From positions 248,001 through 312,000 of the forward strand of contig NZ_SLXD01000002.1 of NCBI RefSeq assembly GCF_004340905.1: a stretch of DNA of 64,000 nt. The letters run 5' to 3'. Under the pieces are notes generated by a model, which saw only the letters and a list, made by a program, of their open reading frames with translations, was not told where the DNA came from and searched no databases. The DNA is from Rubrivivax gelatinosus (lineage in GTDB: Bacteria; Pseudomonadota; Gammaproteobacteria; Burkholderiales; Burkholderiaceae_C). Shown piece after piece: positions 27,463 through 32,314 of the stretch. How positions within the stretch are numbered: the stretch's first letter is position 1; every line of letters begins with the position of its first letter. Made by a program: the position numbers and the translations under genes.

Positions 27463-29142
27463 ATGATGCTCGACCGCGACATCCACCTGAGCAGGGCGCT
27501 GGTCATCGACTCGAATCCGACCTCGCGCAGCATCCTCGTGTCCCAGTTGCGCGACTTCGGCATCGGCACCGTCGCGCAATGCGGCCGGGTTGCCGACGCC
27601 CGCAGCCAGCTGGAGGCCAAGCCCTTCGACATCGTGCTGTGCGAGAACAACTTCGCCGGCAACGACGCCGCCGGGCAGCAACTGCTGGACGACCTGAGGC
27701 GCCACCAGCTGCTGCCGCTGTCGACGGTGTTCATCATGATCAGCGGCGAGGCCACCTACAACAAGGTGGCCGAGGCCGCCGAGTCGGCGCTGGACAGCTT
27801 CCTGATCAAGCCGCACACCGCGTCCGCGCTCGGCGACCGGCTGCTGCACGCGCGGCGGCGCAAGCGCGTGCTCAAGCAGATCTTCGAAGCCGTCGACGAG
27901 GGCCGCTTCGACGAAGCCGCGCAGCTGTGCGTCAAACGCTTCGAGGAGCGCGGCGAGTTCTGGTTGTTCGCCGCACGCATCGGCGCCGAGCTGCTGCTGT
28001 CCAGCGGCCGCCACCGCGAGGCCTGGGACCTGTACGAAGCCGTCATCAAGGCCCAGGCCCTGCCCTGGGCCCGGCTCGGCGTGGCGCGGGCCCAGGTCGA
28101 GAGCAACGAACCGAACAACGCGCTGTCGACGCTGGAGAGCCTGGTCGAGGACCAGCCCAGCTTCGTCGATGCGTACGACGTGATGGGCCGCATCCACCTC
28201 GACCAGGGCAATCTGGAGGAGGCGGCGGCGGTGCTGCTGCGTGCCGCGTCGCTGACACCGGACTCGGTCGGCCGGCTGCAGAAGCTCGGCATCCTGTCGT
28301 TCTATCTCGAGCGCTACGACGACGCGCTGCGCTCGCTCGAACGCGCCGTCAGCATCGGCATCACCTCGAAGATGTTCGATCCGCAGACGCTGGTGCTGCT
28401 GGCCTTCCTGCGCTGGCGCCAGTCCGACACCAAAGGCCTGCAGCGCTGCGCCGAGAACCTGGAGCACATCATTTCGCGCACCCCGGACAGCCAGCGACTG
28501 CTGCGCTTCGGCGCCGTGGTACGCGTACTGGAACTGGCGCTGCGCCTGCAGCACCACGACGCCCTGCAGGCCCTGGCCGACCTGGCACTCGAGGTCCGCG
28601 AAGCCTCCTTCGACCTGGAAGCCGCCGGCAACCTGCTCACGCTGCTGGCGCGCCTGGCCGACGCCGGCTACACGATCGAGCAGGCCGACGAATGGGTGGA
28701 CGCGATCGGGCTGCGCCACTGCACCGCGCGCGCCCTGACCGAGTTGCTGGCCCGCGCCGCCGGGCCGCATGCGCCGTTCGTCGAACGCATCCGCACCTGC
28801 CACCACCGGGTGCTCGAGGTATCGGAGGCGGCCATGGCCTTCAGCGTCGCCGGGGACCCTGGCTCCGCGGTGCGCACGCTGCTGGACAACGGCCGCGCCT
28901 CGCTCAACAGCAAGCTGATCGACACCGCACGCCTCGTGCTGCAGCGCCACCACGACAAGATCGAAGGCGCCGACGATCTGAAGGCGACGATCGAAGACCT
29001 GCGCCTGCGGTACTTCACGCAGTCGGGCAGGCTGCCGATCGGCGACGCTCCGGGGCGAAAGGCCGGTGGCCTGGCGCTGCGTGGCGCTGTCGCCAGCGCG
29101 CTGGGCGCCGAGCCCGAGCCGCCGGTCGCAGCCGCGGCCTGA
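27463..29142 (+). CDS. Pseudo-receiver / TPR-like regulator
   Basis: A 559-residue protein. Residues about 10-135 form a response-regulator receiver-like domain followed by a long helical region with TPR-like repeats (for example EFWLFAARIGAELLLSSGRHREAWDLYEAVIKAQ and DAYDVMGRIHLDQGNLEEAAAVLLRAASLTPD). The phospho-acceptor position is glutamate (IVLCENNF) and the acidic pocket keeps only one aspartate (LVIDSNP), while S (MISGEA) and K (FLIKP) remain. It is therefore probably locked or phosphorylation-independent. I recognise the architecture from proteobacterial receiver/TPR proteins but not a specific function. The first of two adjacent ATGs is used. Confidence 0.85.
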   Translation: MMLDRDIHLSRALVIDSNPTSRSILVSQLRDFGIGTVAQCGRVADARSQLEAKPFDIVLCENNFAGNDAAGQQLLDDLRRHQLLPLSTVFIMISGEATYNKVAEAAESALDSFLIKPHTASALGDRLLHARRRKRVLKQIFEAVDEGRFDEAAQLCVKRFEERGEFWLFAARIGAELLLSSGRHREAWDLYEAVIKAQALPWARLGVARAQVESNEPNNALSTLESLVEDQPSFVDAYDVMGRIHLDQGNLEEAAAVLLRAASLTPDSVGRLQKLGILSFYLERYDDALRSLERAVSIGITSKMFDPQTLVLLAFLRWRQSDTKGLQRCAENLEHIISRTPDSQRLLRFGAVVRVLELALRLQHHDALQALADLALEVREASFDLEAAGNLLTLLARLADAGYTIEQADEWVDAIGLRHCTARALTELLARAAGPHAPFVERIRTCHHRVLEVSEAAMAFSVAGDPGSAVRTLLDNGRASLNSKLIDTARLVLQRHHDKIEGADDLKATIEDLRLRYFTQSGRLPIGDAPGRKAGGLALRGAVASALGAEPEPPVAAAA

Positions 29143-29152
29143 GCGCGCGGCA

Positions 29153-30286
29153 TCAGAACAGGCGCTGCTGGGCGTCGGCGGCCGGGGCCGACGGCGGCAC
29201 GAACGCCGACCCGTCCAGCCGCTGGTGACGGTGCTGCAGGCCCAGGCGCTCGCAGGCCTTGCGCAGGCGCTGGCGCAGCAGTTCGGCCCAGACGCCCTCG
29301 CCGCGCATGCGGCTGCCGAAACGGGGTTCGTTGTCACGGCCGCCACGCATCTCCTGCACACGGGCCATGACGCGCGCGGCCCGGTCGGGGAAATGCTGCT
29401 CCAGCCAGTGGCGAAACAGCGGCGAGACCTCCGACGGCAGGCGCAGCACGATGGCGAAGGCGCGCACCGCGCCGGCCTGGTGCGCCGCCTCGAGCACACG
29501 CTCGAGCTCGGGCTCATTGACGAAAGGAATCAGCGGCGAGACGCTGACACCCACCGGCACGCCGGCGCTGGACAGCGCGCGGATCGTGCGCAGCCGGCGT
29601 TCGGGCGCCGCGGCACGCGGCTCCAGCCGGCGCGCCAACGCCGCGTCCAGCGTCGTCAGCGTGATGTCCACGCAGGCACGACCGGCGGCCGCCATCGGCG
29701 CGATCAGGTCCAGGTCGCGCTCGACCAGCGCCGACTTGGTGATCAGCGAGAACGGGTGCCGCGCCTCGTGCAGCACCTCCAGCACCGCGCGCGTGATGCC
29801 CAGGCGGCGTTCGATCGGCTGATAGGCGTCGGTGACGGTACCGATGGCGATCGGCCGCGGCCGGTAGCCGCGTGCACCGAGCGCGGCGCGAAGGCGTTCG
29901 GCGGCGTTGACCTTGGCCACCAGCCGGGTCTCGAAGTCCAGCCCCGGCGACCAGCCGAGATAGGCGTGCGACGGCCGCGCGTAGCAATAGATGCAGCCGT
30001 GCTCGCAGCCGCGGTAGGGGTTGAGGGAGACCTCGAAGCCGATGTCGGGCGAGTCGTTCTCGGACAGGATGCGGCCAGCGTGCTCCTCGAGGACCTGGGT
30101 CGGCAGCGGGCTCGGCAGCTCGCCGGCCGCGGCGTCCAGCGCACCCCAGCCGTCGTCGAAGACCTCCCGCTCGTCGCGCTCGAAGCGGTGGGCGATGGCC
30201 CAGGTCGTGCCGCGACCCTTCAGCGGGGCGTTCGCCGGCGTGGCCGGCGGCGGGACGGGCGGACGGAGGTTGCGGGGCGGTGACAT
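29153..30286 (-). CDS. Radical SAM protein, PA0069/SplB-like family
   Basis: A 377-residue radical S-adenosylmethionine protein. The cluster ligands are C94, C98 and C101 in RGCEHGCIYCYARPSHAY, followed by the TIM-barrel pattern AIGTVTDAYQPIERRLGITRAVLE, ITKSALVERDLDLI and VDITLTTLD. This family is related to spore photoproduct lyase, but its reaction in non-sporeformers is not established. The ATG at 30286 is the only available start. There is no Shine-Dalgarno sequence, and a TATAAA sits just upstream, so the mRNA may be leaderless. A LexA-type palindrome overlaps the start, pointing to SOS control. dnaB lies 37 bp upstream on the same strand. Confidence 0.9.
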   Translation of the reverse strand: MSPPRNLRPPVPPPATPANAPLKGRGTTWAIAHRFERDEREVFDDGWGALDAAAGELPSPLPTQVLEEHAGRILSENDSPDIGFEVSLNPYRGCEHGCIYCYARPSHAYLGWSPGLDFETRLVAKVNAAERLRAALGARGYRPRPIAIGTVTDAYQPIERRLGITRAVLEVLHEARHPFSLITKSALVERDLDLIAPMAAAGRACVDITLTTLDAALARRLEPRAAAPERRLRTIRALSSAGVPVGVSVSPLIPFVNEPELERVLEAAHQAGAVRAFAIVLRLPSEVSPLFRHWLEQHFPDRAARVMARVQEMRGGRDNEPRFGSRMRGEGVWAELLRQRLRKACERLGLQHRHQRLDGSAFVPPSAPAADAQQRLF

Positions 30287-30287
30287 G

Positions 30288-30303
30288 CTGTTGTTTTATA
30301 CAG
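30288..30303. promoter_or_regulatory. LexA-type SOS box at the start of the radical SAM gene
   Basis: CTGTTGTTTTATACAG fits CTGT-N8-ACAG, the proteobacterial LexA operator core. The symmetry extends outward to CATGCTGT / ACAGCATG (30284-30307). On the coding strand the box contains TATAAA about 6-12 bp before the ATG, so LexA would block both the -10 element and a leaderless start. Confidence 0.75.
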
Positions 30304-30323
30304 CATGCCGCACCCGCCCCGGT

Positions 30324-31727
30324 CTAGTAATCCGACATCGCGTCGGGGGCGAGGTTCTCGAACTTGGTCAGCGGCTTCAGGAAGGCCAGGCGCACGGTGC
30401 CGACCGGGCCGTTACGCTGCTTGCCGATGATGACTTCCGCGACGCCGGGGTCCTTGCTGTCCTTGTTGTAGTACTCGTCGCGGTAGATGAACATGATGAT
30501 GTCCGCGTCCTGCTCGATGGCGCCCGATTCGCGCAGGTCGCTCATCATCGGCCGCTTGTCGGTGCGCGTCTCGACCGAGCGGTTGAGCTGCGACAGCGCG
30601 ATCACCGGGCACTGCAGCTCCTTGGCCAGCGCCTTCAGGCCACGCGAGATCTCGCCGATCTCGGTGGCGCGGTTCTCGCCGTTGCTGGACGACGAGCCGC
30701 TCATCAGCTGCAGGTAGTCGATGACGATCAGCCCGAGCTGGCCGTACTGGCGCGCCATGCGCCGCGCCCGGGCACGCAGTTCAGGCGCGGTCAGCGCCGG
30801 CGTCTCGTCGATGAACAGCTGCACCTGACCGAGCTTGTCGACGGCCTCGGTCAGCCGCTCCCACTCCTCGGTGCGCAGGCGGCCGGTGCGCAGGTTCTGC
30901 TGGTCGATGCGGCCCAGCGAGCCGACCAGACGCAGCGCCAGCTGCGAGGCGCCCATTTCCATGGAATACACGAGCACCGGCAGCCCTTCGGCGACGGCGA
31001 CGTTCTCGGCGATGTTCAGCGCGAACGCGGTCTTGCCCATCGACGGGCGTGCCGCGAGGATGATCAGATCGCCCTTCTGCAGGCCCGCGGTCATGCGGTC
31101 CATGTCGTAGAAGCCGGTGCGCACGCCGGTCACTTCCTCGGCGCCGTTGTCGTGCAGCTCCTGCACGCGGTCGATCAGTTCGACGACCAGCTTGTCGATG
31201 CCCTGGAAACCCTGTTTCTGGCGCGAACCTTCTTCGCCGATCTTGAAGATGTTGCCTTCGGCCTCGTCCAGGATCGCCGTCACCGCCCGGCCCTGCGGGT
31301 TGAAGGCGTTGGTCGCGATCTCGTCGGCCGCGGCGATCAGCTTTCGCAGCACCGCGCGCTCGCGCACGATCTCCGCGTAGCGACGCATGTTCGCCGCGCT
31401 GGGCACGCTCTGCGCCAGCGCGTTCAGGTAGGCCAGGCCGCCGCAGTCCTCGGCCTTGCCCAGGCTCTGCAGCTGCTCGAAGACGGTGATCACGTCGGCC
31501 GGCTTGCTCTGGTTCACCAGGCCGGCGATGGCGGCGAAGATCAGCTTGTGTTCGTAACGGTAGAAGTCGCTGTCGGTGAGCAGGTCGGCGGCGCGGTCCC
31601 AGGACAGGTTGTCGATCAGCAGGCCGCCGAGCACGCTCTGCTCGGCTTCGTTCGAGTGAGGCGGCACGCGCAGCCGGGCGACCTCGTCGTCGGGAGCGGA
31701 ACTACGGGATTCGAACAGCGCGGACAT
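30324..31727 (-). CDS. dnaB: Replicative DNA helicase DnaB
   Basis: Hexameric 5'-3' helicase that unwinds the replication fork. The 467-residue protein has the N-terminal primase-binding domain (RVPPHSNEAEQSVLGGLLIDN), then the RecA-like domain with Walker A ARPSMGKTAFALN, Walker B LIVIDYLQLM and ALSQLNRSVE. The ATG at 31727 is chosen because MSALFESR leads directly into the conserved domain. The frame remains open a further 60 bases upstream. It is separated from rplI by a strong terminator, so it likely has its own promoter in the 31728-31804 gap, though none is obvious. Confidence 0.96.
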   Translation of the reverse strand: MSALFESRSSAPDDEVARLRVPPHSNEAEQSVLGGLLIDNLSWDRAADLLTDSDFYRYEHKLIFAAIAGLVNQSKPADVITVFEQLQSLGKAEDCGGLAYLNALAQSVPSAANMRRYAEIVRERAVLRKLIAAADEIATNAFNPQGRAVTAILDEAEGNIFKIGEEGSRQKQGFQGIDKLVVELIDRVQELHDNGAEEVTGVRTGFYDMDRMTAGLQKGDLIILAARPSMGKTAFALNIAENVAVAEGLPVLVYSMEMGASQLALRLVGSLGRIDQQNLRTGRLRTEEWERLTEAVDKLGQVQLFIDETPALTAPELRARARRMARQYGQLGLIVIDYLQLMSGSSSSNGENRATEIGEISRGLKALAKELQCPVIALSQLNRSVETRTDKRPMMSDLRESGAIEQDADIIMFIYRDEYYNKDSKDPGVAEVIIGKQRNGPVGTVRLAFLKPLTKFENLAPDAMSDY

Positions 31728-31804
31728 GGGATCTGTGGGCAAGTCTGTGGACAGCCTGGGAGCCGCCGGGGGACGGCCGGGGGACAACTGGTGAAGCCCA
31801 AAAC

Positions 31805-31835
31805 GAAGAAGGCCGGCGAAACGCCGGCCTTCTTC
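31805..31835 (-). terminator. Intrinsic terminator after rplI
   Basis: A perfect 14-bp stem (GAAGAAGGCCGGCG / CGCCGGCCTTCTTC) with a 3-nt loop. On the minus strand the stem ends in TTCTTC and is followed by GTTTT. It closes the rpsF-priB-rpsR-rplI operon ahead of dnaB. Confidence 0.85.
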
Positions 31836-31861
31836 AGAAGGGTGGACGAAGCGTAGGCGCT

Positions 31862-32314
31862 TCAGTCCGCCTGTGCAACCACTTGCACGGTGAGCTCGAC
31901 GACGACGTCGCCGTGCGGGGCGACGGCCACCGGGTGCTCGCCGACGGTCTTCAGCGGACCGTTGGGCAGGCGCACCTGCGACTTCTGCACCGCCTTGCCG
32001 GCTTGCGTCAGCGCGTCGGCGATGTCGGCGTTGGTCACCGAGCCGAACAGACGGCCGTCGACGCCGGCCTTCTGCACGATGCGCACGGTGGAGCCGGCGA
32101 GCTGCTCGCCCAGGGTCTGGGCGGCGGCGAGCTTGGCGGCGGCGACCTTCTCGAGTTCGGCGCGGCGCTCGGCGAACTCCTTGATCGCGGCGTCGGTCGC
32201 GCGGCGCGCGAGCTTGGTCGGGATCAGGAAGTTGCGGGCGTAGCCGTCCTTGACCTTGACGATGTCACCGAGGTTGCCGAGCTTGGCGACTTTTTCCAGC
32301 AGGATCACTTGCAT
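31862..32314 (-). CDS. rplI: 50S ribosomal protein L9
   Basis: 150-residue 23S rRNA-binding protein. It begins [32 protein letters not shown], the L9 signature, followed by the long connecting helix ([27 protein letters not shown]) and the C-terminal domain. It is last in the rpsF-priB-rpsR-rplI operon, 11 bp after rpsR, and is followed by a strong terminator. Confidence 0.97.

Follow-up and report, generated by a model that had tools for sequence, protein, structure and literature searches.

LexA is the bacterial DNA-damage switch, and PA0069 is said to have been listed in the SOS regulon of Pseudomonas aeruginosa, by Cirz in 2006. Here, we describe a putative LexA operator that coincides with the point where translation of a PA0069-family radical S-adenosylmethionine (SAM) gene begins in a 64,000-nucleotide stretch of Rubrivivax gelatinosus DNA (the window). 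LexA control of splB, with two motifs, was predicted for Alpha- and Betaproteobacteria by Sanchez-Alberola et al. 2012 (PMC3323433); the passages considered here describe splB as homologous to spore photoproduct lyase (SPL), treat it as a photoreactivation enzyme, and state that the SOS-splB trait was not observed in Gammaproteobacteria. We infer that this splB is the PA0069 family. Excerpts of a Bacteroidetes study place SplB/COG1533 and COG1573-COG4277 in the SOS network of that group (PMC8565304). In Streptomyces venezuelae, the radical SAM gene vnz_31145 belongs to the LexA regulon, with a LexA peak in chromatin immunoprecipitation sequencing, a relative fold change of 19.97 with mitomycin C in RNA sequencing, and likeness to UV-lesion repair enzymes, according to the sections of that report used here (PMC9380542). 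Partial texts also link SplB-like genes to ImuB-C and DUF4130 (PMC3765255), and describe a Pseudomonas 'SplB' that is up with polyphenol (PMC5435343), the latter offering weak support at best.

In the window, the operator core CTGT-N8-ACAG, located by pattern scan and orthologue matrix, occupies 30288..30303 and reads CTGTATAAAACAACAG on the coding (minus) strand. It is embedded in an extended palindrome without strand, CATGCTGT-N8-ACAGCATG (30284..30307), one arm of which contains the ATG start codon (30286-30284, minus strand), a single base past the core. TATAAA, a candidate −10 element, lies within the operator (30300-30295, minus strand), as does an alternative candidate −10 at 30293-30298 on the same strand. 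Palindrome, TATAAA and ATG are thus all present where a sequence-only reading of this DNA had placed them, but the gap between the end of TATAAA and the ATG is 8 bases and not about 10 as given there. That reading also reported the absence of a Shine-Dalgarno sequence, and we see none; the stretch where it would be expected is the operator itself. The gene (29153..30286, minus strand) encodes a 377-residue protein matching NF033668 and PF04055, with CxxxCxYC at residues 94-101. The interpretation we favor, and consider reasonably probable, is that 30284-30307 is a working LexA operator that merges the −10 region and translation start of this gene, giving a leaderless or near-leaderless SOS mRNA while read-through RNA is poorly translated, and that the product has an SPL-type fold without the hydrogen-donor cysteine.

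Counts of the bare pattern prove little about the rarity of the box, and it is the comparative evidence that carries the case. The core occurs once in the 64-kb window against 0.53 expected, and at least once in 41 of 100 shuffles; in the 5.08-Mb genome there are 11 copies compared with 8 of a reversed-pattern control. We therefore discarded rarity of the bare pattern as evidence. These counts are what a chance palindrome with no regulatory role would produce, but such a chance match is exceedingly improbable in view of the orthologues. Of 120 genomes searched from the GTDB family, 86 exceeded the NF033668 cut-off, and 85 upstream regions were read; one partial match (G057) was unused, and two loci (G079 and G081), where the match starts inside the profile and the anchors are approximate, were counted as lacking the box. 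Within 250 bases 5' of the conserved KGRG, an exact box is found in 62 of the 85 orthologues and a box with at most one mismatch in 77, as compared with 0.1 and 4.7 in a Markov control. Segments displaced 300 to 1200 bases upstream contain exact boxes in 0-2 of 84 cases, and boxes with at most one mismatch in 3-7 of 84. Conservation upstream of orthologues, on which the sequence-only reading had staked its proposal, is accordingly what was found. In addition, the window site scores 23.5 with a weight matrix derived from 76 orthologue boxes, the window excluded, far above the next best place in the 64 kb (−2.3).

Assignment of the box to LexA is consistent with its occurrence elsewhere in the same genome, which has one lexA match. 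One-mismatch boxes precede lexA (CTGGATGAAAATACAG) and recA (CTGTACGAATATCCAG), and exact boxes precede imuA, dnaE2 and another repair-type gene. Across the phylum, 111 of 299 sampled genomes exceed the PA0069 cut-off; 70 upstream stretches were read, 30 of which are the best-scoring loci and not a random draw. Of the 26 loci belonging to other orders of this class (GTDB Gammaproteobacteria, as we infer), 17 have an exact CTGTN8ACAG box; the CTGT box was not found in the remaining 9. In loci from other classes, 31 of 39 instead have an exact GTTCN7GTTC, which we take to be the alphaproteobacterial LexA motif. A set of named loci comprised the best 80 of 597 matching stretches, with 79 used (L235 was omitted since its upstream region is too short); anchors are approximate for 11 loci in one upstream set. 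Of the 10 named Alphaproteobacteria among these best-scoring loci, 9 have an exact GTTCN7GTTC; CTGTN8ACAG is exact at 45 of the 63 remaining loci, mostly Burkholderiales, and the CTGT box was not found in any of six Lysobacteraceae/Rhodanobacteraceae orthologues. The Xanthomonas-type LexA motif, scanned for by its consensus, was detected in 1 of 12 loci hand-picked as possibly of that type, and was not found in the other 11 or in three further loci scanned, the window included. The single case, L144 (G208), has TTAGTAATAATACTAATTA 60 bases 5' of the KGRG codons of a PA0069-family gene, a Xanthomonas-type site with one mismatch.

The proposed LexA operator is thus conserved in orthologues, and its motif changes with the class of the host. 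LexA control of the window gene is very likely on these comparisons, although control of this kind is already known, and LexA would be expected to bind at 30284-30307. The comparisons support the placement of a large, unassigned radical SAM family in the predicted proteobacterial SOS regulon, spanning two, perhaps three, LexA motifs. The gene can be lost within the genus: the sole other genome of the same genus searched (G094) gave no match to the PA0069 family though rated 100% complete.

The position of the start codon relative to the operator is well defined by the orthologues. An ATG or GTG exactly at +1 after the box is in frame in 32 of the 85 family orthologues, the window included, and out of frame in one, so that the +1 codon is very likely the real start. 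Counting in-frame ATG/GTG codons one or two bases past the box (fused genes), there are 39 of 85; in 38 the box lies further off, and 8 have no box with at most one mismatch. A Shine-Dalgarno triplet precedes only 2 of the 39 starts. A baseline from genes of the window (12 of 32) was not used for this comparison, as in DNA rich in G+C the longest open reading frame is often spurious, with an uncertain start. In a quick protein tree of 127 rows, 41 of 43 rows of one clade are fused, and the window gene is located inside it together with named Rubrivivax, Roseateles, Rhizobacter, Aquincola and Azohydromonas (Sphaerotilaceae). Eight fused rows fall outside, four of which, all at +2, lie within a Comamonadaceae-like clade. 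The fused label requires 10 changes on this tree, 6 of them forced by well-supported branches, and 3 on a smaller tree of 107 rows restricted to whole-gene loci; the larger tree adds 20 genes to these, 18 of which were selected for being fused. The trees omit L223 and L239, and 35 family loci are absent from the 127-row tree. LexA control alone does not impose this arrangement, since imuA, for which 30 loci were returned from the 42 of 60 genomes above cut-off, has a box with at most one mismatch in 28 of the 30 and a start codon at +1 or +2 in none.

The same genome contains a second radical SAM gene (L010/L259, G000:C13:145961-147139), matching TIGR03916 (rSAM_link_UDG) with 530.8 bits, whose ATG follows an exact LexA box by two bases. 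This gene is present in 9 of 60 genomes of the family; the start is fused to the box at 6 of the 9 loci, and in 5 of these the GTG start shares the operator's final G.

Fusion of box and start codon raises the question of where transcription begins. In an undamaged cell, LexA would cover the −10 element and the start point; upon damage, LexA cleavage would allow RNA polymerase to start on the ATG or only a few bases from it, and the product would be a leaderless or nearly leaderless mRNA. RNA reading through from the upstream dnaB would offer no Shine-Dalgarno sequence and would have the palindrome folded over the ATG, such that good translation would be obtained only from the gene's own SOS promoter. 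In support, 16 of the 39 fused genes have a −35-like TTG at −20 to −17, compared with an average of 2.2 genes, and never more than 4, over 33 other places; the overall count is 19 of 77, leaving 3 of 38 for non-fused genes by subtraction. These offsets were picked after an earlier shuffle test, in which the best single offset was not significant (37/200) and the range was (0/200). Combined with a −10 at box position 6, the TTG spacing would make the A of the ATG the first transcribed base. The predicted fold of the dnaB read-through RNA pairs the ATG within the palindrome with a probability of 0.999, as compared with 0.42 for shuffled upstream sequence and 0.06 for an RNA with the ATG as its 5' end. 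Taken over all 39 fused genes, the difference is small (0.70 versus 0.54, higher in 30), and we offer the operator hairpin as a hypothetical second lock on translation.

An ordinary SOS gene could look much the same if transcription started tens of bases upstream or read through from dnaB; the ATG would then adjoin the box for no other reason than that ACAGTA closes the LexA consensus. This account would fit the 38 of 85 orthologues in which the box is kept and the start lies further off, and it gains from the window itself, where neither terminator-like nor promoter-like sites were found in 29900-31900. The lack of a −35-like hexamer at the matching place in the window, where TATAAA is present, also fits; the promoter scan, made with the sigma-70 consensus, recorded none at the operator. 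The 32-to-1 excess of in-frame starts at +1, the concentration of TTG in fused over other genes, and the short gap lacking a Shine-Dalgarno sequence are all harder to accommodate on those terms, and we judge an upstream start or read-through to be the weaker, though still a serious, explanation. The earlier proposal of a leaderless gene has indirect support: the in-frame +1 ATG, the spaced −35-like TTG of other fused orthologues and the lack of a Shine-Dalgarno sequence agree with it, whereas the −35 region of the window is unrecognizable. From the pattern of these signals, the window gene probably starts leaderless or nearly so.

As for the enzyme, the window protein is a member of the PA0069 family (NF033668, 457.8 bits; cut-off 360) and also matches PF04055, and residues 94, 98 and 101 of the radical SAM motif CxxxCxxC are invariant in the family alignment. 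Its best fold match is SPL (4FHC group), with which profile comparison gives 93.8% probability over 162 columns, and the two share CxxxCxYC, a Thr-Asp pair and one lysine. The hydrogen-donor cysteine of SPL is C140 or C141. The equivalent position, Thr150 in the window protein, is T, S or A in 20 of 20 PA0069-family rows of a pooled alignment, and a motif search of 139 members found no cysteine there in any of the 132 that could be read (7 lack the motif). A search of solved structures with the single protein gave no match, and with the alignment it returned a weak match to SkfB alone (E 0.0059). Among 139 members, the residue that follows the Thr-Asp pair (154 in the window protein) is Ala 61 times, Pro 49 times and Cys 17 times; some members thus have a cysteine four residues from the SPL cysteine position.

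These features bear on whether the gene encodes a true spore photoproduct lyase repairing 5-thyminyl-5,6-dihydrothymine in a non-sporeformer. The fold, the common motifs and the profile match point that way; published SOS papers name the group SplB, and a gene described as SPL-family is up after UV-C in non-sporeforming Curtobacterium according to part of that study (PMC12029717). Against this stand the donor position, never a cysteine, identities of just 10-12% in the fold alignments, a phenylalanine following the third cysteine in 10 of 20 rows, and the lack of any match to the Pfam SPL domain PF20903 (E ≤ 0.001), whether in the Pfam scan of the window or across the genome. SPL-type photoproduct repair, raised by the sequence-only reading, is accordingly highly improbable. 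Because of the missing cysteine, the substrate is probably not the one suggested by the family's name; predicted membership in the SOS regulon implies that it should be a product of DNA damage. The enzyme probably acts on damaged nucleic acid via another radical route.

The remaining surroundings of the operator are less informative. The replicative helicase gene dnaB (30324..31787, minus strand; PF03796, PF00772), a longest frame with an uncertain start, has its stop 20 bases before the box. The earlier suggestion that this adjacency is meaningful is not borne out; dnaB lies in the upstream flank of 24 of 85 family loci and 7 of 149 others, it is a lineage trait, and we set it aside as a clue to function. 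All 24 of these orthologues are fused, as are 15 without dnaB; the stop-to-box distance is 19-142 bases in 20 and 391-832 in 3, with L077 unplaced. A contig titled Myxococcales (L178, DDTA01000205.1) has dnaB upstream of a Sphaerotilaceae-like fused PA0069 gene, and is probably misbinned or transferred. Downstream, the next gene (27463..29142, plus strand), a response-regulator/TPR gene recognized from the open reading frame listing and Pfam scan, is convergent, so that no gene directly after the radical SAM gene runs in its direction. Two other LexA-type boxes were noted in the genome: L005 (G000:C4:222595-222610), with one mismatch to TACTGTATN4ATACAGTA, about 110 bases 5' of a GNAT acetyltransferase frame, and L002 (G000:C2:196933-196948), near-perfect, between MarR-type regulator and DUF6513/dihydropteroate-synthase-like frames.

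A wider scenario can be put forward tentatively, and we hold it to be possible rather than probable. Within a Sphaerotilaceae-like clade, and on several other occasions in the order, LexA operator, −10 element and start codon would have become one module, from which damage yields leaderless mRNA while read-through stays silent, without a Shine-Dalgarno sequence and with the AUG in the operator hairpin. Its product would be a widespread, uncharacterised DNA-lesion radical enzyme without the SPL cysteine, and the TIGR03916 gene would be a second SOS radical SAM gene fused in the same manner. Were the start leaderless, one 24-base element would set damage control of both transcription and translation.

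No description of the fused operator and start was found among the titles and abstract beginnings listed by searches of an open-access library. In the excerpts of PMC3323433, splB resembles the present family in having LexA sites across classes with differing motifs, here extended to many more genomes; those passages do not mention a start codon fused to the operator, and they report the trait as not observed in Gammaproteobacteria, in which we find the exact box at loci of other orders under the GTDB definition. The Bacteroidetes network uses other LexA-like regulators and motifs, and the fused architecture is absent from the passages of PMC8565304 considered. The actinobacterial box of vnz_31145, which may be of PA0069 or Rv2578c type, has its first base 61 bases before the start in the text available (PMC9380542). 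SPL itself (4FHC group; TIGR04070, PF20903) appears alike in overall fold and shares the radical SAM cluster motif, but has a catalytic cysteine where the PA0069 family has none at the matching position, at an identity of about 10%. LexA control of this gene group is not new: a prediction dates from 2012 and a further report from 2021. Together with the Streptomyces data, the 2012 prediction makes our regulatory claim a confirmation and extension; what looks new is the fusion of operator and start codon, the start being probably leaderless, and the absence of the catalytic cysteine known from the best-known relative.
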